From NCBI RefSeq assembly GCF_039536205.1, contig NZ_BAAAYL010000001.1, positions 6,386,001 to 6,450,000 of the forward strand: 64,000 nt of DNA, given 5' to 3'. Position 1 is the first letter of the stretch; each line of letters begins with the position of its first letter. The notes under the pieces were generated by a model that was not told the origin of the DNA, ran no database searches, and worked only from the letters and a program-made list of their open reading frames with translations. Below are positions 12,325 to 47,252 of this stretch, in pieces. The translations under genes were made by a program, and so were the position numbers. Source of the stretch: Streptomyces sannanensis. Lineage in GTDB: Bacteria > Actinomycetota > Actinomycetes > Streptomycetales > Streptomycetaceae.

Positions 12325-14306
<1,982 letters not shown>

Positions 14307-14314
14307 GCGAGAGC

Positions 14315-15256
14315 ATGGAGATCCGTGATCTCTACGGCCTGACGGTCGCCCTGATCGGGCCGGCCGAGCTGGCCGACGAGCCGTGGACCCGGGCGCCGGA
14401 GCACATCGATGTGGTCCGGATGCCCGAGCCCCCGGCCGACTGCTGGGCCGGCCTCGCAAGCAGGGGATTCGTCCGCAAGCCGACCACGGTGACCTGGGCT
14501 GCCGAACTCAGGGCCGACGAGGCGGAGTTCATGGCCCGGCTGGAGCGCAGCGGCCGCAGGGACATCCGCAGGGCCCGGGGGCGGGCGAAGGAGGCCGATC
14601 TGCGCCAGGTGACCGAGGACCCGGTGTCCGAGGCCACACTCGACGCGTTCCTGAAGCTCTACGAGGAACGGGTCGGCGACATGCGCTTCGGGGTCCCCTT
14701 CGCCCTTCAGTACCGGGACGTCATCCTGCACGGGCCGGACAAGTTCTTCGGTGTGTTCGCCTTCGAGGGGGACGAACTGGTCGGGGGCACCCTGGTGCTG
14801 GAGCGCCCCGCGGACGACACGGCCGTGCTGCGCTTCTCGGCCGTCAGCGCGGAATGGCGCAAGGTCAGCCTGGCCCGTTGTCTCTACCCCGCGGCCATGG
14901 ACATCGCCCGCGCCAAGGGCTACACGCGGGCGACGCTGGGGAACGAGCCCAATCTGCTGGGCCATCTCACCCGGCCAGGGCTGCTGGTCTTCAAGACCGA
15001 CCTGGGATTCCGGGCCGTCCCCTCGCAGGACTTCGCCGACCCGCAGGACACCGACGAGGCGGATCTCGTCCTGAGCCTGGCCGCCTTGAACGACCCGACG
15101 CTGATCCTGGGCTACGCCGACCAGGCCGACCCGGCGGAGCGCCGTCTCGCGGGGTACCTTGTGTCCGAGGCGCCGGTGGACCCCGCGGTGTACGCGGCGC
15201 CGTTCCTGACCGCGATGCACCAGCAGCGCCCGGGGGGACGGGCCGGTCCGGGGTGA
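14315..15256 (+). CDS. GNAT / FemAB-like acetyl- or aminoacyltransferase
   Basis: This 313-residue protein starts at ATG 14315, 8 nt after the upstream stop. The central part (FEGDELVGGTLVLERP, then LRFSAVSAEWRKVSLARCLYPAAMDIARAKGYTRATLG, read in pieces) has the beta-bulge and helix pattern of the GNAT fold. The LERSGRRDIRRARGRAKEADL segment resembles the substrate-binding helix of FemAB/MprF-associated GNATs. It probably acylates an amine or hydroxyl of the pathway intermediate using acyl-CoA or aminoacyl-tRNA. It is the last gene of the 12325-15256 plus-strand unit and converges with the ATP-grasp gene. Confidence 0.75.
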   Translation: MEIRDLYGLTVALIGPAELADEPWTRAPEHIDVVRMPEPPADCWAGLASRGFVRKPTTVTWAAELRADEAEFMARLERSGRRDIRRARGRAKEADLRQVTEDPVSEATLDAFLKLYEERVGDMRFGVPFALQYRDVILHGPDKFFGVFAFEGDELVGGTLVLERPADDTAVLRFSAVSAEWRKVSLARCLYPAAMDIARAKGYTRATLGNEPNLLGHLTRPGLLVFKTDLGFRAVPSQDFADPQDTDEADLVLSLAALNDPTLILGYADQADPAERRLAGYLVSEAPVDPAVYAAPFLTAMHQQRPGGRAGPG

Positions 15257-15357: not shown

Positions 15358-16254
15358 CTACTCAGCCGTCTCCGCGATGCGTGCCTCGGCCCAGTCGAAG
15401 ACGCCGCCGAGCACCTGCCGGTGCTGCTCCTTCCCCATCAGGTCGAGGAAGCCCGGAACGGGGTTCACCTCGAGGACCAGGTAACCGCTGTCATGCGGAA
15501 GGATGTCGAGACCGGCCAGGGTCAGGCCCATGGCGCGGGTGGCGCGCAGGGAGAGCTCGACGAGTTCGTCCGGTGCGTCGAGCCGCTCGAAGCTCGACCC
15601 CTCCATGGTCTTGCAGCGCCAGGAGCCGGCGGCCGGGAGCTTGAGGGTGTTCAGAGGTGTCGCGGTTCCCGCCACGGTGATCCGGTACTCGCCGCCCGCG
15701 GTCGAGTAATAGGGCTGGCAGACCAGGGTGGGGAACCGGGACAGCAGGTCCTCCACGATCGCCTTGTCCGCCGTGAGGTCGGCTATCCGCTCCACATCGT
15801 TGCCGCGGTAGCCGAAGGACGGCTTCAGGACGAGCGGCCCCCACTCCTGGTACGCGGCCTCGACATCGGCGAGCGTGACCGCCGACCGTATGGGCGGTAC
15901 GGGGATTCCGGCCGCGGCCAGCCGCTGGGCCATCTGGAACTTGCTGTACCCGGTCACCCAGGCGTCCGCGGGGTCGAAGAGCCGCAGACCGGGGACGTTG
16001 CTGAGCATGCTCAGCCGCTCCACACGGTCCTGCCAGTCGTCGCCGTAGAGCTTGGAACGGTTGATGACCGCGTCGAAGGAAGCCGCCGGCTCGCCGCCGA
16101 GGCCGATCTCGACGCCATTCGTGCCCGAGCGATAGGTGATTTCTTCAAGAGTGAAGAAAGTCATCTCATGCCCGCGCTCGCGCCCGAATTCCATCAGGGC
16201 CGGGCCATCGGGGTCAATGCCGGAGTAGTCCCAGCCCAGCAAGCCGATCTTCAC
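15358..16254 (-). CDS. ATP-grasp ligase (RimK/LysX-like)
   Basis: This 298-residue protein starts at GTG 16254 with MKIGLLGWDYSG, a normal N-terminus for the family; an upstream ATG at 16323 is less likely. The ATP-grasp elements are in order: VLKPSFGYRGNDV (phosphate-loop lysine and glycine-rich loop), CQPYY, EYRITVAG and LEVNPVPGF (Mg-binding Glu/Asn). RimK/LysX relatives join an amino group to a carboxylate through an acyl phosphate, often Glu or another amino acid. No amino-group carrier protein gene of the LysW type is visible nearby, so the substrate is open. It is divergent from the acyl-AMP ligase gene. Confidence 0.88.
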   Translation of the reverse strand: MKIGLLGWDYSGIDPDGPALMEFGRERGHEMTFFTLEEITYRSGTNGVEIGLGGEPAASFDAVINRSKLYGDDWQDRVERLSMLSNVPGLRLFDPADAWVTGYSKFQMAQRLAAAGIPVPPIRSAVTLADVEAAYQEWGPLVLKPSFGYRGNDVERIADLTADKAIVEDLLSRFPTLVCQPYYSTAGGEYRITVAGTATPLNTLKLPAAGSWRCKTMEGSSFERLDAPDELVELSLRATRAMGLTLAGLDILPHDSGYLVLEVNPVPGFLDLMGKEQHRQVLGGVFDWAEARIAETAE

Positions 16255-16524
16255 ACTTCCCCCAAGGGTGCGGATGTATGCCGCACAGAGATCCGGATTT
16301 TCATGCAGCCTTGCCGGGAGCATCACCACTGTCAAGTGCGATGGCTCCTGGCGGACTTGAGGAGAACTTGTCGATGATGAGGCACTCTGTCGGATTTCAT
16401 GCGGCATAAACCGGTGGAGCGTCGAATGCCTGAAGCGGAATACCGAGTTCAGGCCTACCGTGGCCACTCCTTCATCATCTAGGCTCGGCAGCCGGATTCG
16501 CTCTCGAGTGCGAAGGGTGTTGTC
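16255..16524. promoter_or_regulatory. Divergent promoter region inside the biosynthetic cluster
   Basis: This relatively AT-rich 270-bp region separates the ATP-grasp gene (minus) from the ligase-to-cysN unit (plus). On the minus strand TTGACA (16332-16337) is a good -35 element. On the plus strand TAGGCT near 16480 is a plausible -10. No pathway-specific regulator gene lies in the cluster, so any control protein must act from elsewhere. Confidence 0.45.
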
Positions 16525-18174
16525 GTGGGGAAGTGGGAGACGCTCGTCCGGCCGGAGCCCGCACAGGCCGATCACTATCGGGCAGAAGGCTGGTGGCGGG
16601 AATCGACATTCCTCGACGATCTCGCTGAAGCCGCCCGCGCCAAGGGCGGTCATCCGGCGCTCATCGCCTACGAGGGGCGGGAATTGGCCCGTACCGTCTC
16701 CTACTCCGAACTTCACCGGTACGTCGAGCGATTCGCCGCCGCACTCGCCGAACTCGGTGTCACCCGGGGAGACGTGGTGGCTCTCTACCTGCCGAACCGC
16801 TGGGTGCTCACCCCGCTCTACCTCGCCTGTCACCGCCTCGGCGCGGTCGCCTCGCCCGTCATACCCGCGCTCGACGTCCGTGAACTGGCCTTCGTGCTGC
16901 AGGAGAGCAAGGCGAAGGTCTGCGTGACCGTCGACCGCTTCAACGACGCCGACTACGGCGCCCGCCTGGCCGAAGCGGTACCGGACTCCCTCGCCCACCG
17001 TGTGGTGATCGGTGATGCCGCGGCCACCGGCGCGGTCGACTTCGACGAGTTCTTCGTACGTACGCCCTGGGAGGAGCGCCGGCAGGTCGACCCGGCGGAC
17101 CGGCTCGGCCCGGACGACCCGTCGCTGCTGCTCTACACCTCCGGCACCACCGGCCGGATGAAGGGTGTCGTGCACACCCAGAACACCCTGCACGCGGCGG
17201 TGCTCGCGGTCAGCGTGCCGCACGGGGTCACCGGCGACGACGTCATCTCCATCCCGAACTACACGACGCACATGGCGGGTCTGACCTACGCCTGCTACAT
17301 GCCGCTGCTGCTGGGGGCCACCTGTGTCCTGCAGGAGGCGAACCGGGACATGGAGCTGTTCCTCGACGCCATCGCGAAGCATCGCATCACCTGGGCGTAC
17401 GCCTCGCCCGTCTATCTCGTGGACATGCTCGCCGTACAGGCGAAGGAGCCGCGCGACACCTCCAGCGTGGTGCAGATCGTGTCCGGTTCCGCGCCGATCC
17501 AGCCGCAGCTCATCGCGCAGATGCGGGAGGTCTTCGACATCCCGGTCCGGGCCCTGTGGGGCATGACCGAGAACGGCGCGGTCACCGTCACCAGGCCGGA
17601 CGACCCGGAAGGCTGGGCCGGCAACAGTGACGGCCGCTCGGAACCCTCCATGGAGATCCGCGTCGACGCCGAGCCGGGCGAGGTGGGACGGCTGCTGGTC
17701 CGCGGGGCCTCACAGTGCCTCGGCTACCTCGGCCAGCGCGACGTCTACCTGGCCTGCCTGGACGAGGACGGCTGGTTCGACACCGGCGACCTCGCCCGGG
17801 AGGACGGCCGTGGCGGCATCCGGATCACCGGCCGGCGGGCCGACCAGATCAACCGGTCCAGCGGTCAGAAGATCTCCACACTCGAGGTGGAATCCGTGCT
17901 GACCCGGCACCCCGGCATCAAGGACGTGGCACTCGTCGGCTACCCCGACCCTGCCGTCGTCGGCGCGGAACTGGTCTGCGCCGTGGTGGTGCCGGAAGGG
18001 GAGCCGATCACCCTCGAGGCGCTGCACGCCCATCTGGCCGAGGAGCGGATGGCCCAGGTGCTGTGGCCCGACCGGGTCCAGTTCGTATGGGAGCTTCCCA
18101 AGAACTCCCTGGGCAAGGTGCTGCGGCATCCGCTGCGCGAGCGTCTCGAGATCGAATACGCCGCACGCCGGTGA
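16525..18174 (+). CDS. Acyl-AMP ligase / acyl-CoA synthetase family protein
   Basis: This 549-residue ANL-superfamily enzyme starts at GTG 16525, with AAGGG 7 nt upstream. Motif LLLYTSGTTGRMKGV is the AMP/phosphate loop (A3). WGMTENGAVTVT corresponds to A5, GWFDTGDLAREDG to A7, ITGRRADQINRSSGQKIS to A8, and NSLGKVLRHPLR carries the A10 lysine. It activates a carboxylic acid as acyl-AMP for CoA or another nucleophile. It overlaps the next gene by 4 nt (GTGA), so it is co-translated with the exporter. Confidence 0.92.
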   Translation: MGKWETLVRPEPAQADHYRAEGWWRESTFLDDLAEAARAKGGHPALIAYEGRELARTVSYSELHRYVERFAAALAELGVTRGDVVALYLPNRWVLTPLYLACHRLGAVASPVIPALDVRELAFVLQESKAKVCVTVDRFNDADYGARLAEAVPDSLAHRVVIGDAAATGAVDFDEFFVRTPWEERRQVDPADRLGPDDPSLLLYTSGTTGRMKGVVHTQNTLHAAVLAVSVPHGVTGDDVISIPNYTTHMAGLTYACYMPLLLGATCVLQEANRDMELFLDAIAKHRITWAYASPVYLVDMLAVQAKEPRDTSSVVQIVSGSAPIQPQLIAQMREVFDIPVRALWGMTENGAVTVTRPDDPEGWAGNSDGRSEPSMEIRVDAEPGEVGRLLVRGASQCLGYLGQRDVYLACLDEDGWFDTGDLAREDGRGGIRITGRRADQINRSSGQKISTLEVESVLTRHPGIKDVALVGYPDPAVVGAELVCAVVVPEGEPITLEALHAHLAEERMAQVLWPDRVQFVWELPKNSLGKVLRHPLRERLEIEYAARR

Positions 18175-19616
18175 CGGCGTCCCCGCAGTCCGCTGTCGGC
18201 GCCTCGGAGCGTGAGGAAGACAGGCAGCGGCGATCCGTCGCGCTCGCGGTCATCTCCGCGGCCCAGCTGATGTTTCTGCTCGACGCCACCATCGTCAATG
18301 TCGCGCTGCCCAGCATCCAGCGCTCGCTGCGGCTGAGCGGCTCGCACCTCGAGTGGGTCGTCGCCTCGTACTCGATCGCCTTCGGCGGCCTGCTGATGCT
18401 GGGCGGCCGCGCCGGCGACATCCTCGGCAGGCGACGGGTGTTCACCGCCGGAGTGGCGCTGTTCACCGCTGCCTCGCTGCTGGGCGGGTTCGCCGCGGAG
18501 CCCTGGCTGCTCACTGTCTGTCGCATCCTGCAGGGAGTGGGCGCCGCCGCGGCCTCGCCGGCCGCGCTGTCGCTCATTGCCGTGACCTTCCCCGAAGGCC
18601 CGGAGCGCAACCGGGCGGTCGGCTGGTACACGGCGACGGCCACCGCCGGCGGCGGTGTGGGCATCCTGGCGGGCGGACTGATCGCCGCCTATCTGTCCTG
18701 GCGCTGGGTGTTCTTCGTCAACGTCCCGATCGGACTGGTGGTCATCGCCGCCACCCGGCGCGTGATGCCCGAAACGCCCCGGCAGCGCGGGGCGTTCGAC
18801 GCGGCCGGGGCGCTCACCGGCACACTGGCCGCGCTGCTGCTGGTGTACGGACTGATCGACGGCGCACAGGGCGGCGGCAACTGGTCGTCCTGGCGCGTGC
18901 TCGCCGCACTCGGTGCCGCCGCCGTTCTGGCGCCGGCGTTCGTGGTGCTCGAACGGCGCCACCCGCAACCCCTGGTGCCGCTGAGGCTGTTCGCCGACCG
19001 GACCCGCCTCGGTGTCTACGCCGTGCTGGCGCTCACCGGCACCGCCATGTTCGGCATCTTCTTCTTCCTCACTCTCTTCCTGCAGCAGGTCTGGGACTAC
19101 AGCGCGCTGCACACCGCTCTCGTCTACATTCCGCTGACCTGCCTGCTGGTCCTGGGAGCGAAGACCAGCTCCTGGCTCTTCGCCCGGCTCGGCGCCCGGA
19201 CGCTGGTCTGCGGCGGTCTGCTGACCGCGGCGGCCGGGATGCTGTGGCTCTCCCGGATCGGGGACTCGGCCGGCTACGCGACCGGAATGCTCGTGCCGAC
19301 CGTGCTCACGTATGCCGGACTCGGCGTCACCGGCGTGCCGTTGACGCTCTCGGCCCTCGCGCGGGTCGCCGACGAGGACTCCGGTGCCGCCTCCGGCTTG
19401 TTCAGCATGGCCCGCCAGATAGGCGGCGCCACGGGGCTCGCCGTGCTCGGCACGGTCGTCTGGTCGGTGGTCGCCTCGGCGGCGCCCGGCACCCCCGCCT
19501 GGGAGGCGCTGTCCGAAGGCGCCTCCCAGGGATTCGTGGTGGCGGCCGCGATCACCGCGCTCGCTCTGCTGGTGGCGCTCGTCACCGTGCCCGGGAAGGA
19601 GCGGACAGTCATATGA
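18171..19616 (+). CDS. MFS drug/product exporter (DHA2, 14-TM type)
   Basis: This 481-residue membrane protein has about 14 hydrophobic segments. LDATIVNVALPSIQ in TM1 and GGRAGDILGRRRVF between TM2 and TM3 are hallmarks of the EmrB/QacA proton-antiporter group. It is encoded inside the operon with GTGA and ATGA overlaps at its two ends and probably exports the product or gives self-resistance. Confidence 0.92.
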   Translation: MTASPQSAVGASEREEDRQRRSVALAVISAAQLMFLLDATIVNVALPSIQRSLRLSGSHLEWVVASYSIAFGGLLMLGGRAGDILGRRRVFTAGVALFTAASLLGGFAAEPWLLTVCRILQGVGAAAASPAALSLIAVTFPEGPERNRAVGWYTATATAGGGVGILAGGLIAAYLSWRWVFFVNVPIGLVVIAATRRVMPETPRQRGAFDAAGALTGTLAALLLVYGLIDGAQGGGNWSSWRVLAALGAAAVLAPAFVVLERRHPQPLVPLRLFADRTRLGVYAVLALTGTAMFGIFFFLTLFLQQVWDYSALHTALVYIPLTCLLVLGAKTSSWLFARLGARTLVCGGLLTAAAGMLWLSRIGDSAGYATGMLVPTVLTYAGLGVTGVPLTLSALARVADEDSGAASGLFSMARQIGGATGLAVLGTVVWSVVASAAPGTPAWEALSEGASQGFVVAAAITALALLVALVTVPGKERTVI

Positions 19617-20734
19617 ACGACTTCCTCGTCATCGGGGGCGGCATCGCCGGCGCCGCCGCCGGTTACTTCCTCGGCCCGCGCGGCAGGGTGACCTTGCTGG
19701 AGGCCGAGCGGACTCCTGGCGTGCACTCGACCGGCCGGTCCGCGGCATTGTTCTCGGAGTACTACGGAAACGACTGTGTCCGATCCTTGACACGCGCCTC
19801 ACGCGCCTTCTACGAGACACCGCCACCCGGTTTCGCGGTCGCCCCGCTGCTCACCCCGCGCGGGGTGCTCGCACTGGAGACCCCCGGCACGGCCGAGCTG
19901 TTCGAGGCCGCGAAGGAATCGGGAGCGCACGCCCCCCAGCCCGTCGCCGAACTGGACCGGGCGCAAGCACTGCGCCTGTGCCCGGTGCTGTGGCCCGGCA
20001 CCTTCGGCCGTGTCCTGCACAGACCCGGTGCCTGCGACATCGATGTGGACGCGGCCCACCAGGGCTTCCTGCGCGGGCTGCGGTCCGCCGGCGGCACTGT
20101 GGTCACCGACGCCAGGGTCCTCGGACTGGAGCGGCGGCACGGCCGCTGGTACGCGGACACCACGGCGGGGGAGTTCAGCGCACGCGTCGTGGTGAACGCC
20201 GCCGGCGCCTGGGCGGACGAGATCGCCCGGCTGGCCGGCGTCCACCCGGCCGGACTGGTGCCGCGCCGCCGTACCGCGGCGCTCGCCAAACTGCCGCCCG
20301 GAATCGACGCCACCACCTGGCCGATGATCTGCGACGTGGCGGGCACCTTCTACGCCAAGCCGGAGGCGGGCGGTCTCCTGCTCTCCCCGTTGGACGCCGA
20401 ACCCGCCCCGCCGGGGGACGTACGGCCCGACGCTCTCGACATCGCCCTGGCCGTCGAGCGCCTGGAAGCGGTGACCACCCTGCGCATCCGGCACATCAGC
20501 CACGCCTGGGCGGGACTGCGCACCGCGCCCGCCGACGACACGCCCGTCATCGGCCCGGACCCGGTCGAGTCCGGCTTCTGCTGGCACGCCGGCCTCGGCG
20601 GATACGGCATCCAGACCGCCCCCGCGGCAGGCGCGCTGCTCGCGGCGCTCGCCGCGGGGGAAGCACCGCCACCCGAGCTCACCTCCGCCGTCCCGGGCGT
20701 CACCCCTGCCCGGGACCGCGGACAGCCTCTCTAG
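19613..20734 (+). CDS. FAD-dependent amino acid oxidase-like oxidoreductase (DAO family)
   Basis: This is a 373-residue protein. The N-terminus FLVIGGGIAGAAAGYFL is the Rossmann FAD-binding loop, the middle has VVNAAGAWADEIARLAG and the C-terminus GLGGYGIQTAPAAG, matching glycine/D-amino-acid oxidase and sarcosine oxidase relatives. It probably oxidises a C-N bond of an amine or amino acid to an imine. ATG overlaps the exporter stop (ATGA). Confidence 0.9.
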   Translation: MNDFLVIGGGIAGAAAGYFLGPRGRVTLLEAERTPGVHSTGRSAALFSEYYGNDCVRSLTRASRAFYETPPPGFAVAPLLTPRGVLALETPGTAELFEAAKESGAHAPQPVAELDRAQALRLCPVLWPGTFGRVLHRPGACDIDVDAAHQGFLRGLRSAGGTVVTDARVLGLERRHGRWYADTTAGEFSARVVVNAAGAWADEIARLAGVHPAGLVPRRRTAALAKLPPGIDATTWPMICDVAGTFYAKPEAGGLLLSPLDAEPAPPGDVRPDALDIALAVERLEAVTTLRIRHISHAWAGLRTAPADDTPVIGPDPVESGFCWHAGLGGYGIQTAPAAGALLAALAAGEAPPPELTSAVPGVTPARDRGQPL

Positions 20735-20771: not shown

Positions 20772-23700
20772 ATGTCGGAAGCGATCTGGCAGTTGGCCGG
20801 CAGCGCCGTCGATCACGGCCCGTACCGGCCAGTGGCCGCCCTCATCGAGGACCAGACCGACCGAACCCCCGACCGCCCGGCCGTCATCCACCGGTCGTCG
20901 AGGGAGACGACCCTGACCTACGCGGAGTTCGACGCTCTGGCCAACGGGCTCGCCGCGGAGCTGACGGCGACCGGACTGGGCACCGGCGACATGGTGCCGG
21001 TCGTGATCGGCAACAGCGAGGAACTGCCGCTGTGCATGGTGGCGCTGATGAAGATCGGCGCGGTGTTCACCCTCTGCGACCCGGCCTGGCCCGAGGAGCG
21101 GCTGCGCGCGGTCCTGGAGGTGCTGGCCCCCAAGCTGGTGCTGACCTCGGGCTGCGCCGTACGCACCGAACTGCCGGTGCGTGTCGTGTCGGCGCGCGAC
21201 ATCACGCCGAGCCCGCACCGCCCCGGCCTCCTGCCGGGCCCCGACCAGCCGGTCTACGGCGTCTTCACCTCGGGCACCACCGGCACCCCCAAGTGCGCCG
21301 TCAATCTGCACGGCGGGCTGACCAACCGCTTCCGCTTCATGTCCCGGCACTTCCGGGCCAACGGCGAAGAGGTGGTGCTGCAGAACAGCCGGCACACCTT
21401 CGACTCGGCCATCTGGCAACTGCTGTGGCCGCTGACCACCGGCGGCCGCACGGTCATTCCCGAGCCGGGTGAGTTCCTCGACCTGGAGCGGACGGTCGAG
21501 ACCATCGACCGCTACCGGGTGACGGTCACCGACTTCGTCCCGGCGATCCTCGGCATGCTCGTCACCCTGCTCGAGGCCGTCCCGGAATCCGTGGCCAAGG
21601 TCGCCTCACTGCGGCATCTGGTGGTGGGCGGAGAAGAGATCATCCCCCATGCCGCGCACCGGCTGAGGGCCCTGGTCCGCGGTCTGGAGATATCCAACGG
21701 ATACGGTCCCTCCGAAGCCTCGATCGGCATGGTCTTCCACCGCATCGACGGCACCGAGGGCGACCGCATCCCGCTCGGCCGGCCGATCGACAACTGCTAT
21801 GCCGTCGTCACCGACGAGGAACTGCGCCCGCTCCCGCCGGGCAGCACCGGGGAGATCCTGATCGGCGGTGCCTGCATCGGCGCCGGATATCTGGGCGATC
21901 CGGACCGTACGGCGGAGGTCTTCGTCCCCAACCCCTTCCCCGCCGTTCCGGGCGAGCGTCTGTATCGCACCGGCGACCTCGGCTGGTACGACGAAGAAGG
22001 CCTCCTGCGCTTCACCGGCCGCCGCGACCGGCAGACCAAGGTGGACGGCGTCCGCATCGAACTCGCCGAGATCGAGACCACCGCCGAGGGCTGCCCCGGT
22101 GTCGTCCAGGCCAAGGCACTCACCGTGCGCCGCGCGGGACGCAACCGGCTGGTGGTCGCCGCGGCGGCGGAGGAGAACACGACTCCGGCCGTGCTCCGGG
22201 CTCATCTGGCCGCCCGGCTGCCACGCGTCCAGGTGCCGCAGCACTGCTTCGTACTGCAGTCCCTGCCGCTCACCGACAACGGCAAGGTCGACCTCGGCGC
22301 GCTGCGCGGCCTGGTCGAGGAGAAGCTCGAATCCGAGACCAGACCCGCGACGCACTACGGCGACGCGCTCGAGGAGCGCATCGCGAAGGTGCTCTGCGAT
22401 GTGCTCGGCCTGCCGCACTTCGATGCCCGCGACGACTTCCTCGCCCAAGGCGGCGACTCGCTGTCCGCGCTCGGCGCCGCCATCCGCATCCGGGACGAGC
22501 TCGGTGTGCAGCTCGGCATCTCCGACCTGTACCGGCACCGAACCCCCGCCGCGCTGGCCGCGGCCCTGTCCGGAAGCGCCCCGCAGGCCGGCCAGGACAC
22601 CGACACCGGGGCGCTGATGGAACGCGATGCTGCACTCGACGTCGAGCTGACGGAGCTTGCCAAGGCGGCAGTCGGCCGGACCGTCACGGCCCCGCCGGGC
22701 ACCGTCCTGGTCACCGGCGGGGCCGGCTTCGTCGGCGCACGGACCGTGCACCGCCTCCTCACCTCGACCGAGGCACGAGTGATCTGCCTGGTGCGGGGAC
22801 GCGACGACGCACACGCCCGGGACCGGGTCGTCCACACCCTGCGGTCCCAGGGGCTGTGGGACGAGTCTCTCGCCGGACGCCTCGAGGTGCACCGGGGCGA
22901 CCTCGGCGAACCCTTGTTCGGCTGGGCGCCGGAAACCTGGGACAGCCTCGCGGCGGACTGCGACGCCGTCCTGAACATCGCGGCGATGGTCAACTTCCTG
23001 CTCGACTACCGCGCACACCGCCCGGCCAATGTGCACGGCACGGCGGAGGTGCTCCGCTTCGCGCTGACCGGACGGCCGAAACCGCTCCACCACGTCTCCA
23101 CCCTGGGCGTACTCGATCACCACGCCGTCCGGTCGGACCGGCCCCTGGACGAGGACTTCGACCCGTCGGACGCGCCGGCCCCCACGAGCGGCTACAGCAG
23201 GTCCAAATGGGTGGCCGAACGGATGCTGCTGGAAGCCCGGCGGCTCGGCGCCCCCGTCACGCTCTACCGGCTGGGCGAGGTGATGCCGGCCGCCGACAAC
23301 GGCGTACCCAACCGGAAGGCGCTGACCCATCTGCTGCTGTCGGCCTTCCACCGGCTGGAGCTGCGGCCCTCCGTGCCCATGTACTCCGACTACACGCCCG
23401 TCGACTTCACCGCGGAACGACTGGTCTGCGGACTGCTGGAGCCGGCCCCCGCGGCGGTCCACCACATATTCCGGCCGGGCAGCGTCGACTTCACCGCGTC
23501 CGACCCTGCCGACACAGGCCCGGCGGGCACTTCCCGCCCGGTTCCGCCGGCCGAGTTCATGGCCGCGCTGAGTGCGGAGGCGGAGCGCGAACAGGGCTCC
23601 GCCGCGGCCGTGCTGCACGCGCTGCTCACGACGCTGCCCGTCACCGGCGCCGACGGCCTGCCGGAGTTCGGCCGGCTTCTCGCCGACAACTCCGCCCTGT

Positions 23701-23801
23701 TCACCCGTGATTCCTGTGCCGCGCTCGAAGCTCGGCACGGCCTGACCGAGCGGCCGCTGGCAGCAGCGATCGCCGCGTACCGCAGCACACTCACCGCCTG
23801 A
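20772..23801 (+). CDS. Adenylation-thiolation-reductase (A-T-R) NRPS-like protein
   Basis: This 1009-residue protein has three domains. The adenylation domain (about 1-510) has FTSGTTGTPKCAV, NGYGPSEAS, YRTGDLGWYDEEG and the NGKVDLGAL A10 lysine. The carrier domain (about 535-605) has FLAQGGDSLSAL with S563 as the phosphopantetheine site. The reductase domain (from about 645) has TVLVTGGAGFVG for NADPH and GYSRSKWVAE with the Tyr/Lys pair. Such proteins load an acid or amino acid and release it as an aldehyde without a condensation domain. A GGAGG element lies only 2 nt before ATG. The aldo/keto reductase that follows is the natural next enzyme. I did not derive the substrate code. Confidence 0.95.
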   Translation: MSEAIWQLAGSAVDHGPYRPVAALIEDQTDRTPDRPAVIHRSSRETTLTYAEFDALANGLAAELTATGLGTGDMVPVVIGNSEELPLCMVALMKIGAVFTLCDPAWPEERLRAVLEVLAPKLVLTSGCAVRTELPVRVVSARDITPSPHRPGLLPGPDQPVYGVFTSGTTGTPKCAVNLHGGLTNRFRFMSRHFRANGEEVVLQNSRHTFDSAIWQLLWPLTTGGRTVIPEPGEFLDLERTVETIDRYRVTVTDFVPAILGMLVTLLEAVPESVAKVASLRHLVVGGEEIIPHAAHRLRALVRGLEISNGYGPSEASIGMVFHRIDGTEGDRIPLGRPIDNCYAVVTDEELRPLPPGSTGEILIGGACIGAGYLGDPDRTAEVFVPNPFPAVPGERLYRTGDLGWYDEEGLLRFTGRRDRQTKVDGVRIELAEIETTAEGCPGVVQAKALTVRRAGRNRLVVAAAAEENTTPAVLRAHLAARLPRVQVPQHCFVLQSLPLTDNGKVDLGALRGLVEEKLESETRPATHYGDALEERIAKVLCDVLGLPHFDARDDFLAQGGDSLSALGAAIRIRDELGVQLGISDLYRHRTPAALAAALSGSAPQAGQDTDTGALMERDAALDVELTELAKAAVGRTVTAPPGTVLVTGGAGFVGARTVHRLLTSTEARVICLVRGRDDAHARDRVVHTLRSQGLWDESLAGRLEVHRGDLGEPLFGWAPETWDSLAADCDAVLNIAAMVNFLLDYRAHRPANVHGTAEVLRFALTGRPKPLHHVSTLGVLDHHAVRSDRPLDEDFDPSDAPAPTSGYSRSKWVAERMLLEARRLGAPVTLYRLGEVMPAADNGVPNRKALTHLLLSAFHRLELRPSVPMYSDYTPVDFTAERLVCGLLEPAPAAVHHIFRPGSVDFTASDPADTGPAGTSRPVPPAEFMAALSAEAEREQGSAAAVLHALLTTLPVTGADGLPEFGRLLADNSALFTRDSCAALEARHGLTERPLAAAIAAYRSTLTA

Positions 23802-23824: not shown

Positions 23825-24808
23825 GTGCACTACCGAACGATGGGCCGCCTCGGCTGGCAGGTCAGCGAGATCGGCTACGGAATGTGGGGCATCGGCGGCG
23901 GCCCCGGAGGGTTCACCGGCTGGGACTACGACGTGGCGCCGGACTGCCTGGACCTCGCCGTCGACCAGGGCTGCACCTTCTTCGACACTGCCTGGGTCTA
24001 CGGCCGCGGCGTCAGCGAGCAGATGCTGGGCGCGCTGCTGCGCAGACACAGCGGCCGGCGTCTGTACACCGCCACCAAGGTCCCGCCGCTCAACCGGGAA
24101 TGGCCCCCACGCCCGGACGACACCCTCGACGACGTCTTCCCGGCCCACCACATCCGCGAGTACGTCCACCGCAGCCTGGAGAACCTCGGCACGGACCGGA
24201 TCGACCTGCTGCAGTTCCATGTCTGGGAGGACCGCTGGAGCGGCGACGAGCGCTGGCAGCAGGTCATCGCCGACCTCAAGGCCGAGGGCGTGATCGAGGG
24301 CTTCGGCCTCAGCGTGAACCGCTGGGAGCCGGCCAACTGCCTGCGCGCCCTCGACACCGGACTCGTCGACGTCGTCCAGGTCATCTACAACATCTTCGAC
24401 CAGGCCCCCGAGGACGAGCTCTTCGAACGGGCCCAGCGCGACGGTATCGGGATCATCGCCCGTGTCCCCTTCGACGAGGGCGGACTCACCGGGACGCTCA
24501 CCCGCGACACGGTCTTCCCCGAGGAGGACTGGCGTTCCGTCTACTTCGGCCCCGAGAACCTGGGCCCCACGGTCGACCGGGCCGAGCGGCTGAAGAAGGC
24601 GCTGCCCGACGGCATGGAACTGCCCGAGCTCGCCCTCCGGTTCATCCTGCATCACCCCGCCGTGAGCACCGTCATCCCCGGCATGCGCAAGCCCGCTCAC
24701 GTCCGCGCCAACCTGGGCGTATCCGGGAAGCCGCCGCTCGCCCCCGAGCTCCTGGACGAGCTGCGCGGCCACCGTTGGGACCGGCAGCCGACGGAGTGGT
24801 CGATGTGA
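23825..24808 (+). CDS. Aldo/keto reductase
   Basis: This 327-residue TIM-barrel reductase has the AKR tetrad motifs: FFDTAWVYGRGVSEQMLG (Asp/Tyr), TATKVPP (Lys), LLQFHVWE (His) and a C-terminal VIPGMRKPAHVRAN NADPH-binding segment. GTG 23825 follows GAGAGGAAACTC. It likely reduces the aldehyde released by the A-T-R protein to an alcohol, or another carbonyl in the pathway. It overlaps the sulfotransferase start by 4 nt. Confidence 0.9.
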   Translation: MHYRTMGRLGWQVSEIGYGMWGIGGGPGGFTGWDYDVAPDCLDLAVDQGCTFFDTAWVYGRGVSEQMLGALLRRHSGRRLYTATKVPPLNREWPPRPDDTLDDVFPAHHIREYVHRSLENLGTDRIDLLQFHVWEDRWSGDERWQQVIADLKAEGVIEGFGLSVNRWEPANCLRALDTGLVDVVQVIYNIFDQAPEDELFERAQRDGIGIIARVPFDEGGLTGTLTRDTVFPEEDWRSVYFGPENLGPTVDRAERLKKALPDGMELPELALRFILHHPAVSTVIPGMRKPAHVRANLGVSGKPPLAPELLDELRGHRWDRQPTEWSM

Positions 24809-25524
24809 GCGTCATCGCGATGTGGGCACACCCCCGAGCGGTCTCCACCGCGTTCCTGCGCATGATGATCGAGCGTGGGGACGTCACCGTCGTGCACGAG
24901 CCCCTGGTCCTGCTCACGGACCACGGCCGGATGGAACTCCCCGGCACCGACGGCGGAACGACGACCGTGCTTACGACCGGCGATCTGCTGGACCGTCTGA
25001 CGGAACTCGGCGCCCGGCGCCCGGTGTTCTTCAAGGACACGCTCGAATACCACCACCAGTATCTGTTCGACCACCCCGAGGCCATCGCCGGATTCCGGCA
25101 TACCTTCATCGTCCGTGAGCCGGCCCGGACGATCGCCTCGCACCACGCGGTCAAGCCCGAACTGGCCTGCCACGAGGTCGGCTACGAGCACCAGCACGCC
25201 CTCTTCGAGCTGGCCTGGAAGACCACCGGCACACGCCCCGTGGTCATCAGCGCCGAGCGCCTGCTCAAGGACCCGGCCCCCGTGGTCGAGGCGTACTGCG
25301 CCGCCGTCGGCCTGCCCCATCTGCCGGAAGCCCTGAGCTGGCAGCCGGGCGAGCGCGTCGAATGGCAGCAGAACCGGCGCTGGCACGTCGACGCCATCGC
25401 CAGCGCGGGCTTCCGACTGCCCGAGAAGGAGTACGCGGTCACCGTCGAGAACGACGGGCGCCTGCGCGGCTACTACGAGCACCACCTTCCGTACTACGAA
25501 CGGCTCATCGAGCACGCCCTCTGA
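24805..25524 (+). CDS. Sulfotransferase family protein
   Basis: This is a 239-residue PAPS-dependent sulfotransferase. MWAHPRAVSTAF near the N-terminus is a 5'-phosphosulfate-binding loop of the PRSxST type, and FIVREPARTIASHH is the 3'-phosphate-binding strand-turn-helix. It transfers sulfate to a hydroxyl or amine. The shell-protein and PAPS-synthesis genes follow directly, which strongly supports a working sulfation step. Overlap with the reductase (GTGA) suggests that the alcohol made upstream is the acceptor. Confidence 0.82.
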   Translation: MSVIAMWAHPRAVSTAFLRMMIERGDVTVVHEPLVLLTDHGRMELPGTDGGTTTVLTTGDLLDRLTELGARRPVFFKDTLEYHHQYLFDHPEAIAGFRHTFIVREPARTIASHHAVKPELACHEVGYEHQHALFELAWKTTGTRPVVISAERLLKDPAPVVEAYCAAVGLPHLPEALSWQPGERVEWQQNRRWHVDAIASAGFRLPEKEYAVTVENDGRLRGYYEHHLPYYERLIEHAL

Positions 25525-25559: not shown

Positions 25560-26363
25560 ATGACCGAGACTCCCGGCAAGCGGTTCGCCCACGCCTTCGT
25601 CGCCGACCCCGAACACGCCCAGGTCGACTTCGACTTCACCCTCAGCGACGCCTTCCAGCCCACGAACGACCGGCCGCGCCTCACCGTACGCAACCTCTTC
25701 CGCAAGCAGCGCGCCGACTCCGGCACGGTCCGGTCCTGGTTCGAGACCAGGCCGGGCGCGGACGCGGCGGGGCGGGACGGCAGGCTGCGCGAGGCCGCAT
25801 TCCGGTTCTCGGTGGCCGAATACGGCGTGCGGCCGATCACGGGCTGGGTGCAGGTACCTGAAGACCTCGCCAAGGAACCGGAAGGCCTGGCCTCCTTCAT
25901 CGACCGACGCCTGATGGTCCGTCTCGGCACCGCGGAGAACCTGGCGCTCACCCGTGAACTGCTGAGCCACCCCGATGTGGCGCCTCTGCCCTTCAAGGGC
26001 TCGTACACGGCGGGCGTACTCGCCGCCTTCGAGGAGATCGAGCAGACCGGCGGCACCGGTCACGCCATGATCGTGAATCCGGCGGACTACTACGGTGAGT
26101 TGGTCGGCGCGGGCAGTGTGCTCCAGGACCTCGCCCGGGAGAAGGTGATGATCTGCCGCAACCGTCACGTGGCCCCGGGGCACGCACTGGTCGGCGACTT
26201 CGCCATGGCCGCCCGGCTGCTCGAGGCGGGCCATTCGGTGATCAAGGTCGCCGAGCCGCCGGAGGGGACCTTCGACCAGCCCGGCACAGCGGTCTGCGCG
26301 GAGGTCTACGAAGGCGTCGCCGTGCAGCTGCCCACCCACTTCTTCCACGTCGTACCGGCATGA
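25560..26363 (+). CDS. HK97-fold shell protein, Family 3 (natural-product) encapsulin-like
   Basis: This 267-residue protein starts at ATG 25560 behind AGGAG. It reads like an HK97 capsid protein rather than an enzyme. A flexible N-terminal arm is followed by the extended-loop region (about 40-75). The P-domain run FRFSVAEYGVRPITGWVQVP then EDLAKEPEGLASFIDRRL forms the strand and long spine helix. MIVNPADYYGEL begins the A-domain, and HSVIKVAEPPEG and a C-terminal YEGVAVQLPTHFF strand complete the fold. No catalytic motif is visible. Family 3 encapsulins were described computationally in Streptomyces biosynthetic clusters, often with sulfotransferase genes, and this setting matches. It probably assembles into a closed compartment for pathway enzymes; which enzyme is cargo is unknown. 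It is co-translated with cysC (ATGA). Confidence 0.78.
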   Translation: MTETPGKRFAHAFVADPEHAQVDFDFTLSDAFQPTNDRPRLTVRNLFRKQRADSGTVRSWFETRPGADAAGRDGRLREAAFRFSVAEYGVRPITGWVQVPEDLAKEPEGLASFIDRRLMVRLGTAENLALTRELLSHPDVAPLPFKGSYTAGVLAAFEEIEQTGGTGHAMIVNPADYYGELVGAGSVLQDLAREKVMICRNRHVAPGHALVGDFAMAARLLEAGHSVIKVAEPPEGTFDQPGTAVCAEVYEGVAVQLPTHFFHVVPA

Positions 26364-26896
26364 GCGATGGCGCCACGGTCTGGCTGACCGGTCTGCCGAG
26401 CGCGGGCAAGACCACGATCGCGTACGAGCTGGCGGGCCGGCTGCGTGAGGAGGGGCACCGGGTGGAGGTGCTCGACGGTGACGAGGTCCGCGAGTTCCTC
26501 TCCGCGGGCCTGGGTTTCAGCCGTGAGGACCGGCACACCAATGTGCAGCGGATCGGCTTCGTCGCCGAGCTGCTGGCGAGCAACGGCGTGAAGGCGCTGG
26601 TGCCGGTGATCGCGCCGTACGCGGACAGCCGCGAGGCCGTGCGCAAGCGCCATGACGCCGCGGGCACCACGTATGTCGAGGTGCACGTCGCGACACCGGT
26701 GGAGGTGTGCTCGGTGCGTGATGTGAAGGGCCTGTACGCCAAGCAGGCCTCAGGCGAGATCAGCGGGCTGACCGGCGTCGACGACCCCTACGAGGCCCCC
26801 GAGACACCCGACCTCCGGATCGAGTCGCACCGGCAGACCGTCCAGGAGTCCGCGGCCGCGCTGCACGCGCTGCTCACCGAGAAGGGACTGGCCTGA
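26360..26896 (+). CDS. cysC: Adenylylsulfate (APS) kinase
   Basis: This is a 178-residue P-loop kinase with Walker A GLPSAGKTT near residue 15, then LDGDEVREFLS and LGFSREDRHTNVQRI, which bind APS, and VKGLYAKQASGEI, the lid. It makes PAPS from APS. ATG overlaps the shell-protein stop and its own stop overlaps cysD, so the shell, cysC and cysD form one coupled unit. A reductase gene (cysH) is absent, so the pathway serves sulfation rather than cysteine synthesis. Confidence 0.95.
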   Translation: MSDGATVWLTGLPSAGKTTIAYELAGRLREEGHRVEVLDGDEVREFLSAGLGFSREDRHTNVQRIGFVAELLASNGVKALVPVIAPYADSREAVRKRHDAAGTTYVEVHVATPVEVCSVRDVKGLYAKQASGEISGLTGVDDPYEAPETPDLRIESHRQTVQESAAALHALLTEKGLA

Positions 26897-27852
26897 TGAC
26901 GACCGCCCCTGTCACCGAGACCACCGACAACGCTCCCCCAGCCTCCGGCCGGGGGTACCCCCAGCTGTCGCATCTGGACGTTCTGGAATCCGAGGCGGTG
27001 CACATCTTCCGTGAGGTGGCGGGTGAGTTCGAGCGGCCGGTGATCCTGTTCTCCGGCGGCAAGGACTCCATCGTCATGCTGCACCTGGCGCTGAAGGCGT
27101 TCGCCCCGGCGCCGGTACCGTTCTCGCTGCTGCACGTGGACACCGGGCACAACTTCCCCGAGGTCATCGACTACCGCGACCGAACGGTCGCGGCGCACGG
27201 GCTGCGGCTGCATGTCGCCTCGGTGCAGGAGTACATCGACAACGGCCGGCTGCGTGAACGCCCCGACGGCACCCGCAACCCGCTGCAGACCGTGCCGCTG
27301 ACCGAGAAGATCGCCGCCGAGCGGTTCGACGCGGTCTTCGGCGGGGGCCGCCGCGACGAGGAGAAGGCCCGCGCCAAGGAGCGGGTGTTCTCGCTGCGCG
27401 ACGAGTTCTCCCAGTGGGACCCGCGCCGCCAGCGCCCCGAGCTGTGGCAGCTCTACAACGGCCGGCACGCCCCCGGCGAGCACGTCCGGGTCTTCCCGCT
27501 GTCGAACTGGACCGAGCTGGACGTGTGGCAGTACATCGCCCGCGAGAAGATCGAACTCCCTCGGATCTACTACGCACACGAGCGTGAGGTCTTCCGGCGG
27601 GGCGGCATGTGGCTGACCGCCGGCGAGTGGGACGGCCCCAAGGAGGGCGAGACCACCGAGACCCGGCTCATCCGCTACCGCACGGTCGGCGACATGTCCT
27701 GCACCGGCGCCGTCGACTCCGACGCGGCCACGATCGAGCAGGTCATCGCCGAGATCGCCGCCTCCCGGCTCACCGAACGGGGCGCCACCCGCGCCGACGA
27801 CAAGCTGTCCGAAGCCGCGATGGAAGACCGCAAGCGCGAAGGGTACTTCTAG
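26896..27852 (+). CDS. cysD: Sulfate adenylyltransferase subunit 2
   Basis: This 318-residue protein is the catalytic subunit of ATP sulfurylase. It is a PP-loop ATP pyrophosphatase: ILFSGGKDSIVMLHLA is the SGGxDS loop, followed by VDTGHNFPEVI and a C-terminal region ending EDRKREGYF, typical of CysD. It forms APS from sulfate and ATP together with CysN. The spacing to cysN is 2 nt. Confidence 0.97.
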   Translation: MTTAPVTETTDNAPPASGRGYPQLSHLDVLESEAVHIFREVAGEFERPVILFSGGKDSIVMLHLALKAFAPAPVPFSLLHVDTGHNFPEVIDYRDRTVAAHGLRLHVASVQEYIDNGRLRERPDGTRNPLQTVPLTEKIAAERFDAVFGGGRRDEEKARAKERVFSLRDEFSQWDPRRQRPELWQLYNGRHAPGEHVRVFPLSNWTELDVWQYIAREKIELPRIYYAHEREVFRRGGMWLTAGEWDGPKEGETTETRLIRYRTVGDMSCTGAVDSDAATIEQVIAEIAASRLTERGATRADDKLSEAAMEDRKREGYF

Positions 27853-27854
27853 TC

Positions 27855-29138
27855 ATGACCACCACCACCATCGACACCAGCGCCACCTCGCTGCTGCGTT
27901 TCGCCACCGCCGGTTCCGTCGACGACGGCAAGTCCACCCTGGTCGGGCGGCTGCTGCACGATTCGAAGTCCGTCCTGGCCGACCAGCTGGAGGCCGTGGA
28001 GACGGCATCCCGCAACCGGGGCCAGCAGGCCCCGGACCTGGCACTGCTCACCGACGGACTGCGCGCCGAACGGGAACAGGGCATCACCATCGATGTCGCC
28101 TACCGCTACTTCGCCACGCCCCGGCGCCGGTTCATCCTGGCCGACACCCCCGGGCATGTGCAGTACACCCGCAACATGGTCACCGGCGCCTCCACCGCCG
28201 AACTGACCATCATCCTGGTCGACGCCCGCAACGGCGTCGTCGAACAGACCCGCCGCCACGCCGCCGTCGCCGCCCTCCTGCGCGTCCCGCACATCGTGCT
28301 GGCCGTCAACAAGATGGACCTCGTCGACCACGCCGAGCCCGTCTTCGCGCGCATCGCCGAGGAGTTCACCGCCTACGCCACCCAACTCGGCTTGCCGGAG
28401 GTCACTGCGATCCCGATCTCCGCGCTGAACGGCGACAACGTGGTGGAGCCCTCCGCCCACATGGACTGGTACGGCGGCCCCACCGTGCTGGAACACCTGG
28501 AGACCGTGCCCGTCGGCACGGACCCCTCCGACGCCCCGGCCCGCTTCCCGGTCCAGTACGTCATCCGCCCGCAGACCGCCGCACACCCCGACTACCGCGG
28601 CTACGCCGGCCAGATCGCCTCCGGCGTGCTCCGCGTCGGCGACCGGGTGAGCGTCCTGCCCTCGGGCCTGACCTCCACCATCACCGGCATCGACGCACTC
28701 GGCCGGGCCATGGACGTGGCCTGGGCCCCGCAGTCGGTGACCCTGCTGCTGGCCGACGACGTCGACATCTCCCGCGGCGACCTGATCACCCCCACGGCCG
28801 CCGCCCCGACGACCACCCAGGACGTCGAAGCCACCGTCTGCCACCTGCACGAACGTCCGCTCAAGGTCGGCGACCGGGTGCTGCTCAAACACACCACCCG
28901 CACCGTCAAGGCGATCGTGAAGGACATTCCCTCCCGGCTGACGCTGGAGGACCTGTCCCAGGACGCTTCGCCCGGCGCGCTCGCCATCAACGACATCGGC
29001 CGGGTGGTCATCCGCACCGCGGAGCCACTGCCCATCGACGCCTACGCCGACTTCCGGCGCACCGGTTCCTTCCTGCTGATGGACCCGGCGGACGGCACCA
29101 CGCTCACCGCGGGGATGGCGGAGCGCCCTGCCTCGTAA
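27855..29138 (+). CDS. cysN: Sulfate adenylyltransferase subunit 1 (GTPase)
   Basis: This 427-residue EF-Tu-like GTPase drives APS formation by CysD. G1 is AGSVDDGKST, G2 lies around EREQGITIDVAYRYF, G3 is ADTPGHVQYTRNM, G4 is NKMD, and two beta-barrel domains follow. It is the end of the cluster and of its operon. The next gene is convergent, only 4 bp away, with no obvious terminator in between. Confidence 0.97.
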   Translation: MTTTTIDTSATSLLRFATAGSVDDGKSTLVGRLLHDSKSVLADQLEAVETASRNRGQQAPDLALLTDGLRAEREQGITIDVAYRYFATPRRRFILADTPGHVQYTRNMVTGASTAELTIILVDARNGVVEQTRRHAAVAALLRVPHIVLAVNKMDLVDHAEPVFARIAEEFTAYATQLGLPEVTAIPISALNGDNVVEPSAHMDWYGGPTVLEHLETVPVGTDPSDAPARFPVQYVIRPQTAAHPDYRGYAGQIASGVLRVGDRVSVLPSGLTSTITGIDALGRAMDVAWAPQSVTLLLADDVDISRGDLITPTAAAPTTTQDVEATVCHLHERPLKVGDRVLLKHTTRTVKAIVKDIPSRLTLEDLSQDASPGALAINDIGRVVIRTAEPLPIDAYADFRRTGSFLLMDPADGTTLTAGMAERPAS

Positions 29139-46022: not shown

Positions 46023-47252
46023 GTGAGCAGCGAGAACGCAGACGCCGGGGCTCAAGCCGGAGAAGAGCGTGTCGGGTCGGTGTGGGACGTCGTCGTGGTC
46101 GGCGCCGGGCCCGCAGGTGCCTCGGCGGCCTATGCCGCCGCAGTGGCCGGGCGGCGGGTGCTGCTGTTGGAGAAGGCCGAACTGCCTCGCTACAAGACGT
46201 GCGGCGGCGGCATCATCGGGCCTTCGAGGGACGCCCTGCCGCCCGGCTTCGAGCTGCCGCTACGGGACCGGGTGCACGCGGTGACCTTCTCGCTCAACGG
46301 CCGGCTGGCACGTACCCGCCGTTCCAAGGGGATGCTGTTCGGCCTGATCAACCGCCCCGAGTTCGACGCCGGGCTGGTGGAGCAGGCGCAGAAGGCGGGT
46401 GCCGTGCTGCGCACCGGTGCGATGGTGTCGCGGGTCGAGCAGCACGGTCCCGCGGTGCCGGACCGGCGCATGGTGGCGGTCGTGCTGGCGAGCGGCGAAA
46501 CGGTGCTGGCCAGGGCGGTCGTCGGTGCCGACGGCAGCGCGAGCCGGATAGGGGCACATGTCGGGGTGAAGCTCGACCAGGTGGACCTCGGGCTGGAGGC
46601 GGAGATCCCGGTGCCGCCCACCGTGGCGGAGGACTGGGCGGGCCGCGTACTCATCGACTGGGGCCCGATGCCCGGAAGTTACGGCTGGGTGTTCCCGAAG
46701 GGCGACACACTCACGGTCGGCGTGATCTCGGCGCGCGGCGAGGGCTCGGCCACCAAGCGCTATCTGGACGACTTCATCGCCCGGCTGGGGCTCGCCGGGT
46801 TCGAGCCGGCGATCTCCTCGGGGCATCTGACGCGCTGCCGTACCGACGACTCGCCGCTGTCCCGCGGCCGGGTGCTGGTGTGCGGCGACGCGGCGGGGCT
46901 GCTGGAACCGTGGACTCGCGAGGGCATCTCGTTCGCGCTGCGCTCGGGGCGGCTGGCGGGCGAGTGGGCGGTGCGTATCGCCGAGTCCCAGGCCGCGGTG
47001 GACGCCCGCAGGCAGGCACTCAATTACGCCTTCGCCATCAAGGCGGGGCTGGGTGTGGAGATGGGCGTGGGGCGGCGGCTGCTCGCTGCCTTCGAGCGTC
47101 GGCCCGGGCTGTTCCACGCGGCGATCACCGGTTTCCGGCCCGCCTGGAACATGTTCGTGGGGATAGTGCGCGGCTCGACCTCGCTCGCCGGGATCGTACG
47201 CAACAGCCCGGTGGTGCGGCGCGTCCTGACCGCGCTGGACGACCGGTCCTGA
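46023..47252 (+). CDS. Geranylgeranyl reductase-family FAD oxidoreductase
   Basis: This 409-residue protein has VWDVVVVGAGPAGASAAYAA for FAD binding, PRYKTCGGG (active-site Cys motif of the family), VVGADGSASRIG and VLVCGDAAGLLEPWTREGIS for the second FAD contact. Such enzymes saturate isoprenoid side chains of menaquinone or lipids; related ones act on other isoprenoid groups. No quinone or isoprenoid gene is nearby, so the substrate is open. Confidence 0.9.
   Translation: MSSENADAGAQAGEERVGSVWDVVVVGAGPAGASAAYAAAVAGRRVLLLEKAELPRYKTCGGGIIGPSRDALPPGFELPLRDRVHAVTFSLNGRLARTRRSKGMLFGLINRPEFDAGLVEQAQKAGAVLRTGAMVSRVEQHGPAVPDRRMVAVVLASGETVLARAVVGADGSASRIGAHVGVKLDQVDLGLEAEIPVPPTVAEDWAGRVLIDWGPMPGSYGWVFPKGDTLTVGVISARGEGSATKRYLDDFIARLGLAGFEPAISSGHLTRCRTDDSPLSRGRVLVCGDAAGLLEPWTREGISFALRSGRLAGEWAVRIAESQAAVDARRQALNYAFAIKAGLGVEMGVGRRLLAAFERRPGLFHAAITGFRPAWNMFVGIVRGSTSLAGIVRNSPVVRRVLTALDDRS

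Follow-up and report, generated by a model that had tools for sequence, protein, structure and literature searches.

The window analysed here is a stretch of 64,000 nucleotides from Streptomyces sannanensis (NCBI RefSeq assembly GCF_039536205.1, contig NZ_BAAAYL010000001.1, positions 6,386,001 to 6,450,000 of the forward strand), and coordinates below are those of the window unless stated otherwise. Its central feature is a gene for a capsid-like shell protein, lying within an operon whose genes are given below with the matches by which they were named.

12325 to 13437, + strand: DUF6421 protein, PolE-like Fe/pterin oxidase, 370 aa (Pfam DUF6421, E 2.9e-12, over part of the protein; HEYHH at residues 202-206, E230)
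13464 to 14306, + strand: DUF6202 protein, PolF-like diiron oxidase (HDO) of the azetidine-forming family (Pfam, E 4.7e-139; PolF structures)
14315 to 15256, + strand: GNAT/FemAB-like transferase, start estimated (Pfam Acetyltransf_6, E 3.6e-6)
15358 to 16323, - strand: RimK-like ATP-grasp ligase, start estimated (NCBIfam rimK_fam, E 1e-23, below cut-off; Pfam RimK, 4e-14)
16525 to 18174, + strand: stand-alone AMP-forming ligase (Pfam AMP-binding, E 7e-76)
18171 to 19616, + strand: MFS transporter, start estimated (Pfam MFS_1, E 1.6e-50)
19613 to 20734, + strand: FAD-dependent (DAO-type) oxidoreductase (Pfam DAO, E 1.3e-50; best NCBIfam match glycine oxidase ThiO, below cut-off)
20772 to 23801, + strand: A-T-R carboxylic acid reductase, with adenylation, carrier and thioester reductase domains (Pfam AMP-binding, PP-binding and NAD_binding_4; Thioester-redct over cut-off)
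23825 to 24808, + strand: aldo/keto reductase (Pfam, E 8e-49), its stop overlapping the sulfotransferase GTG start
24805 to 25524, + strand: sulfotransferase, 239 aa from the GTG (Pfam Sulfotransfer_5, E 3.8e-15)
25560 to 26363, + strand: Family 3 encapsulin shell protein, 267 aa (NF041188, HK97 profile match, AlphaFold/Foldseek)
26360 to 26896, + strand: cysC, APS kinase (Pfam APS_kinase, E 2e-57)
26896 to 27852, + strand: cysD, ATP sulfurylase small subunit (Pfam PAPS_reduct domain, 2e-44)
27855 to 29138, + strand: cysN, ATP sulfurylase GTPase subunit (Pfam GTP_EFTU, 2.4e-41)

The enzyme set listed in the original prediction (HDO-like protein, HExxH protein, ATP-grasp ligase, A-T-R enzyme, aldo/keto reductase, and sulfotransferase) is present in full, with the ATP-grasp gene on the minus strand, and its placing of the shell gene between an upstream sulfotransferase and the downstream PAPS-synthesis genes cysC, cysD and cysN is borne out by the Pfam matches. 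To that list we add the GNAT/FemAB-like protein, the AMP-ligase, the MFS transporter and the FAD (DAO-type) oxidoreductase. No nucleoside genes were recognised among the scanned neighbours, a PADLOC defence search of three proteins gave no match, and a promoter/terminator scan returned matches no more often than chance. Elsewhere in the window, a single ORF of 2668 aa (1083-9089, minus strand) shows no more than a weak match to protein kinases close to its C-terminus, scoring under the Pfam cut-off; and ARAGORN calls a tRNA-Ser(cga) at 47060-47130 (plus strand) inside a FAD-monooxygenase-like ORF (46023-47252), which puts one of the two, the tRNA call or the end of the ORF, in doubt.

The shell ORF spans exactly 25560-26363 on the plus strand, starting with an ATG that is preceded by AGGAG, and its stop overlaps the cysC start in the predicted ATGA (26360-26363). 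Its third-position GC of 0.89 is typical for genes of this 70.6% GC window. NCBIfam model NF041188 (family 3 encapsulin nanocompartment shell protein) matched positions 1-266 with 324.5 bits against a cut-off of 180 (E 4.1e-97), in agreement with the original assignment to Family 3, and a Pfam scan gave no match at E up to 1, PF05065 included. As for that Pfam family, the text of PMC8346489 cited here assigns it to Family 3 once, speaks elsewhere of "some members", and gives no Pfam designation in its methods. PHROGs yielded only a weak match to a major head family (E 0.0034), and the single shell sequence reached HK97 gp5 only at E ~0.005; a profile of 14 shell relatives, by comparison, matched HK97 gp5 in the PDB over positions 35-258 at E 8e-19. 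At E up to 10, the shell-family profile found nine phage capsid sequences and one chance-level ribosomal protein in the PDB, and at E < 1e-3 the solved structures matched were phage capsids only; thus, no Family 3 shell seems to have been solved in the PDB copy searched. We had also considered the shell protein as itself an aziridine-forming enzyme of the AziU3/U2 kind, and dropped this because the family profile finds phage capsids in the PDB.

That the protein is an HK97-type shell rather than an enzyme had been proposed from the sequence, with structure prediction and fold comparison as the check and an unrelated fold as the outcome that would speak against it. An AlphaFold model built from a 54-sequence alignment (mean pLDDT 90.7, pTM 0.88) comprises an N-terminal helix (residues 5-15), an E-loop hairpin (56-89) and a long spine helix (107-135), the element names being assigned by us. 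In Foldseek searches with this model, HK97 prohead I ranked first (E 4.7e-18, TM 0.70), all 50 matches listed were HK97-type capsids, and a search of viral models returned HK97-type capsids, none of them closer. The 50 include the Pyrococcus encapsulin 2e0z (TM 0.62/0.71) and Myxococcus EncA (0.47-0.58). The NF041188 score, the HK97 gp5 profile match and the predicted structure therefore agree, and the product of 25560-26363 is, as judged from sequence and modelled fold, an HK97-fold Family 3 encapsulin shell protein. Relative to the HK97 major capsid protein it has the same fold with about 19% identity but is shorter, and no protease, portal or terminase gene was recognised adjoining it; with the Family 1 encapsulins 2e0z and EncA it shares the fold (TM about 0.5-0.7) at 10-12% identity, and no ferritin-like or peroxidase gene was found among the scanned shell neighbours.

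The reductase-sulfotransferase-shell arrangement recurs in 8 of 392 Streptomyces-genus genomes, and in six of these (G000, the window's genome, and G184, G248, G228, G391 and G214) the whole operon is present, in the same order up to the shell gene. A seventh, G105, keeps of the window's genes only those for the DAO-type oxidoreductase, the A-T-R enzyme, the aldo/keto reductase, the sulfotransferase and the shell. The eighth, G145, has the reductase, sulfotransferase and shell genes with an A-T-R fragment among runs of N, one of which interrupts its shell gene, which scores in two pieces. NF041188 itself was passed in 16 of the 392 genomes, seven of which have the window's gene set, and in a phylum-wide sample in 2 of 396, the window's genome among them. 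A scan of genome contigs gave 67 named Family 3 loci, twelve of which (L076-L087) belong to the window class, including those of S. smaragdinus, S. gossypii, S. barkulensis, S. radiopugnans, S. pini and S. caniscabiei. Since L084, L086 and L087 lie on the same contigs as G214, G391 and G248, the window class is represented here by 17 distinct strains, in all of which the reductase-sulfotransferase-shell order is held. In a 55-row tree the shells of this class (11 rows) form one clade with 100/99 support, in a topology whose long branches meet at the base and whose root and placement of the distant G588 are unsure.

As the gene order recurs in other Streptomyces genomes, chance is excluded as its explanation. 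The same conservation brings close to refuted a reading of the gene as a prophage capsid relic that plays no part in the cluster, to which similarity to the HK97 capsid would otherwise lend itself. Besides the order held across 17 strains, no phage genes occur among the annotated neighbours of the shell gene, no plasmid match was found at 1e-5, and a tblastn search of phages returned 33 records within an E-value limit of 0.01, of which the ten listed had 21-23% identity and E-values of 2e-3 or weaker.

The genes immediately upstream of the shell gene would form a reduction and sulfation module. The aldehyde that A-T-R enzymes release is converted to the alcohol by aldo/keto reductases. In the window's A-T-R protein, the serine motif of the carrier is present, as is YSRSK in the reductase domain; the nine adenylation specificity residues, located by motif and general position rules, read DSWDVGGIG and are identical in 16 of 16 sequences. 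Together, the A-T-R enzyme, aldo/keto reductase and sulfotransferase suggest a route from aldehyde to amino alcohol to sulfate ester. In G248 (L062/L063) and G228 (L066/L067), the DUF6421 gene is immediately preceded by an additional A-T-R-like ORF, which scores 243-253 bits against that of the window.

At the reductase/sulfotransferase junction, the sequence TGGTCGATGTGA (24797-24808), which contains the overlapping stop and GTG start, is invariant in 19 of 19 readable rows, and in all of 20 rows, from 17 strains, the GTG inside the reductase stop leads into the frame of the sulfotransferase; this overlap suggests translational coupling. Orthologues of the sulfotransferase (67-100% identity) occur in exactly 8 of the 392 genomes, the next matches having at most 49%. 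All eight carry a window-class shell, so that in this sample the sulfotransferase is never found without the shell. The protein itself has little outside its Pfam domain (9-227 of 244).

The PAPS genes behind the shell gene occur twice in the genome. The segment 26369-29119 aligns over 2758 columns with a second cysCDN copy at ~5.517 Mb of the same genome at 97.6% identity, the duplicated block beginning 9 bases into cysC and ending 19 bases before the cysN end, with the second cysD copy (G000:C1:5517403) at 100% identity; it reflects either a recent duplication or gene conversion. We rejected the idea that the PAPS genes are a mere adjacent housekeeping operon because of this near-identical second copy. 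In S. smaragdinus the corresponding position is taken by cysDN with 85% identity to the window's copy, and two more strong cysD matches lie elsewhere; no PAPS genes were found behind the shell gene in other class members within the stretches read. Local PAPS supply is thus not a trait of the class, and was so added, or homogenised by gene conversion, in the window's sublineage.

Across Family 3, the window class included, all 67 named loci have a sulfotransferase gene in the vicinity of the shell gene, a count taken over 10-kb flanks (some contigs being short) at a low phmmer threshold, as were the other 67-locus counts, in loci found with the family's own patterns. As measured to the best matched segment of three queries (the sulfotransferases of the window, L117 and L090), the distance is at most 300 bp in 50 loci (49 within 200 bp, one at 286 bp), 0.8-0.9 kb in 10, and 4.6-5.1 kb on the other strand in the remaining 7. 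These enzymes differ in family: the window's is a Sulfotransfer_5 protein, and those of L117 and L090 match Sulfotransfer_3 (L090 just under the cut-off). At a phmmer E of 1e-4, the window query found nothing in loci of the other classes, nor did the L117 query in those of the window class, indicating that the pairing of sulfotransferase and shell is not simply one inherited gene pair.

The accompanying genes differ as well. LysX, LysY, LysZ-LysK and transketolase matches were each found in 37 of the 67 loci, not always the same ones, an SDR in 53 of 67, and PAPS genes above 100 bits in 31 of 67; many of L088-L142 combine the shell with LysX/LysY/LysZ-LysK, transketolase, an SDR and a second sulfotransferase type. 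Among the matches listed for the 12 window-class loci, none to LysX/LysY/LysZ or transketolase exceeded 40 bits and an SDR appeared in one (L078), and the window's annotated neighbours include no LysY, LysZ or transketolase. Sulfation next to an amine looks to be the step common to the Family 3 classes, one that the window class would reach by another route.

The two genes at the upstream end of the operon, described in the original prediction as HDO-like and HExxH, are identified here, by sequence and motif comparison, as homologues of PolF and PolE, respectively. Compared with crystal structures, the DUF6202 protein matched SaPolF 9j27 at E 1.8e-123 and PolF 9prr at E 7e-111. In the DUF6421 protein, HEYHH at 202-206 and E230 make up the motif HE/DxxHx(21-23)E, identical in 6 of 6 class sequences, and the portions of PMC12614342 drawn on here give this motif for PolE and name Glu230. 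According to the same portions, in polyoxin biosynthesis PolE desaturates L-Ile, and PolF, which acts alone in vitro, converts L-Ile or L-Val to azetidine amino acids. By similarity, then, the window's homologues would make an azetidine. DUF6202 is rare, occurring in 9 of the 392 genomes, of which six belong to the window class. The remaining three (G005, G019 and G073; loci L149-L151) have DUF6202, of the PolF family, without the shell cluster.

If the PolE/PolF oxygenases were the cargo, the shell would serve azetidine formation. Both are in the same operon as the shell in 6 of the 8 class genomes, as that reading would have it, but no DUF6202 match was found in the G105 genome, which has shell and core, and DUF6202 is absent from 9 of 9 genomes with other-class shells over the cut-off; together with the in vitro activity of PolF on its own reported in PMC12614342, this makes PolE/PolF cargo very improbable. 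The G105 arrangement indicates, moreover, that it is the reduction/sulfation core, and not azetidine formation, with which the shell is associated.

We therefore favour, with a probability of roughly 0.5, a reading in which the Family 3 ("natural product") encapsulin, a domesticated HK97-type capsid, serves as the operon's nanocompartment for the aldehyde and sulfation steps. The assembly, cargo, substrate and product that we infer would be as follows. The PolE/PolF homologues would turn L-Ile or L-Val into an azetidine amino acid by desaturation and cyclisation, and the AMP-ligase, ATP-grasp and GNAT proteins would join or protect building blocks. The A-T-R enzyme would load the amino acid (or a peptide) and release an aldehyde, which the aldo/keto reductase would convert to a beta-amino alcohol and the sulfotransferase, supplied by the local cysCDN, to an O-sulfate ester; the MFS transporter would export the product. 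Shell subunits would form an icosahedral compartment around the late steps, with the sulfotransferase as the most likely cargo, together with or near the reductive enzymes, and the compartment would shield the cytosol from the amino aldehyde, which is reactive, and from the beta-amino alkyl sulfate, an electrophile.

No cargo-type tail or domain was found when protein ends were compared within the class and for chosen loci across classes, and the sulfotransferase C-termini inspected in other classes had no evident motif in common with the window's. The aldo/keto reductase ends in PTxWSM within the class, relative to NFYS, NFYA or NFYG in its nine nearest non-cluster homologues. This tail was rejected as a cargo tag because WSM-stop is the invariant TGGTCGATGTGA holding the sulfotransferase GTG start, and because the whole reductase is about 90% conserved; an AlphaFold model of the reductase (pLDDT 54.5) was too poor for use.

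A shell holding no enzyme cargo, and instead binding or storing the product or an intermediate for self-protection or acting as a scaffold, would be in keeping with the lack of a recognised conserved targeting tail in the class proteins inspected. We rate it an unlikely explanation, as it leaves the tight link to the sulfotransferase gene unexplained, and Family 1 and 2 shells hold enzyme cargo according to the text of PMC8346489.

Alternatively, a true Family 3 shell might contain the FAD (DAO-type) oxidase, confining hydrogen peroxide and a reactive imine rather than sulfation. The DAO gene is retained in the reduced core of G105 and in six other class genomes, as well as in 11 of the 12 named class loci (the exception being a short contig end), and in the distant G588 the shell gene is followed by an ORF that matches DAO weakly (41.5 bits); an oxidase cargo would also fit the oxidative-stress theme of some other encapsulins. 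Among the matches listed in the 55 other-class loci, however, none to DAO exceeded 40 bits, as against a sulfotransferase in all 67 loci, and we regard oxidase cargo as unlikely.

Returning to containment of the aldehyde and sulfation steps, a bolder version covering all of Family 3 would have the beta-amino alkyl sulfate closed to an aziridine (Wenker-type) inside the shell, keeping an alkylating intermediate off DNA. In the window class, the A-T-R enzyme and aldo/keto reductase would then stand in for LysZ/LysY and transketolase, with a sulfotransferase of a different family, and the PolE/PolF azetidine would lead to two strained N-rings or their ring-opened forms. We consider this extension doubtful, with the odds heavily against it. 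A PF06224 DNA glycosylase, a self-resistance lead for an alkylating product in the portion of PMC9040887 drawn on, was found in all 9 genomes searched and also in 5 of the 14 controls, and none of the matches listed for the window's genome falls inside the window, which argues mildly against a DNA-alkylating (aziridine) end product, although not against a transient aziridine.

Because the cluster is compact and collinear and recurs in 17 strains, and because an azetidine pathway solved recently has counterparts of two of the cluster's enzymes, substrate, cargo and product lend themselves to direct tests. The link between sulfotransferase and shell across sulfotransferase families provides a concrete cargo hypothesis for the whole of Family 3. 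If true, a capsid domesticated from a virus would be what bacteria use to confine a sulfate ester that is electrophilic.

In the survey of Andreas and Giessen 2021 (PMC8346489), whose text describes 132 Family 3 shells in six classes, Family 3 clusters contain sulfotransferase/SDR pairs and LysW-type carriers, and containment of aldehyde or ketone intermediates is proposed; the function of Family 3 shells is raised there and left unanswered. Like those clusters, the window combines a shell with a biosynthetic cluster holding a sulfotransferase and an NRPS-type enzyme; unlike Family 3 as described in that text, the window class has its own shell clade, PolE/PolF homologues, an A-T-R enzyme and an aldo/keto reductase. 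The suggestion that this enzyme set may be a new combination thus stands as regards a distinct clade with its own gene set, and among the papers listed in the literature searches none joins encapsulins with PolE/PolF, azetidine or aziridine; it is weakened in that, by comparison with the survey's text alone, the gene set may be one of the six classes, there without the azetidine reading.

The azinomycin/vazabitide route, in which, according to the portion of PMC9570651 cited, sulfation of an amino alcohol is followed by attack of the adjacent amine, which expels the sulfate and so forms an aziridine, has in common with the window the logic of amino aldehyde, amino alcohol and sulfate ester. 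Other Family 3 loci, with their LysX/LysY/LysZ-LysK, transketolase, SDR and sulfotransferase genes, resemble this route; in the window class neither transketolase nor LysY or LysZ was matched, and no gene dedicated to aziridine formation was recognised. With the polyoxin PolE/PolF pathway, as given in the portions of PMC12614342 cited above, the window cluster has the DUF6202 and DUF6421 homologues in common; in the window, in contrast, these adjoin a shell and sulfation genes. The shell family has been known since 2021, and the azetidine reading rests on work of 2025.
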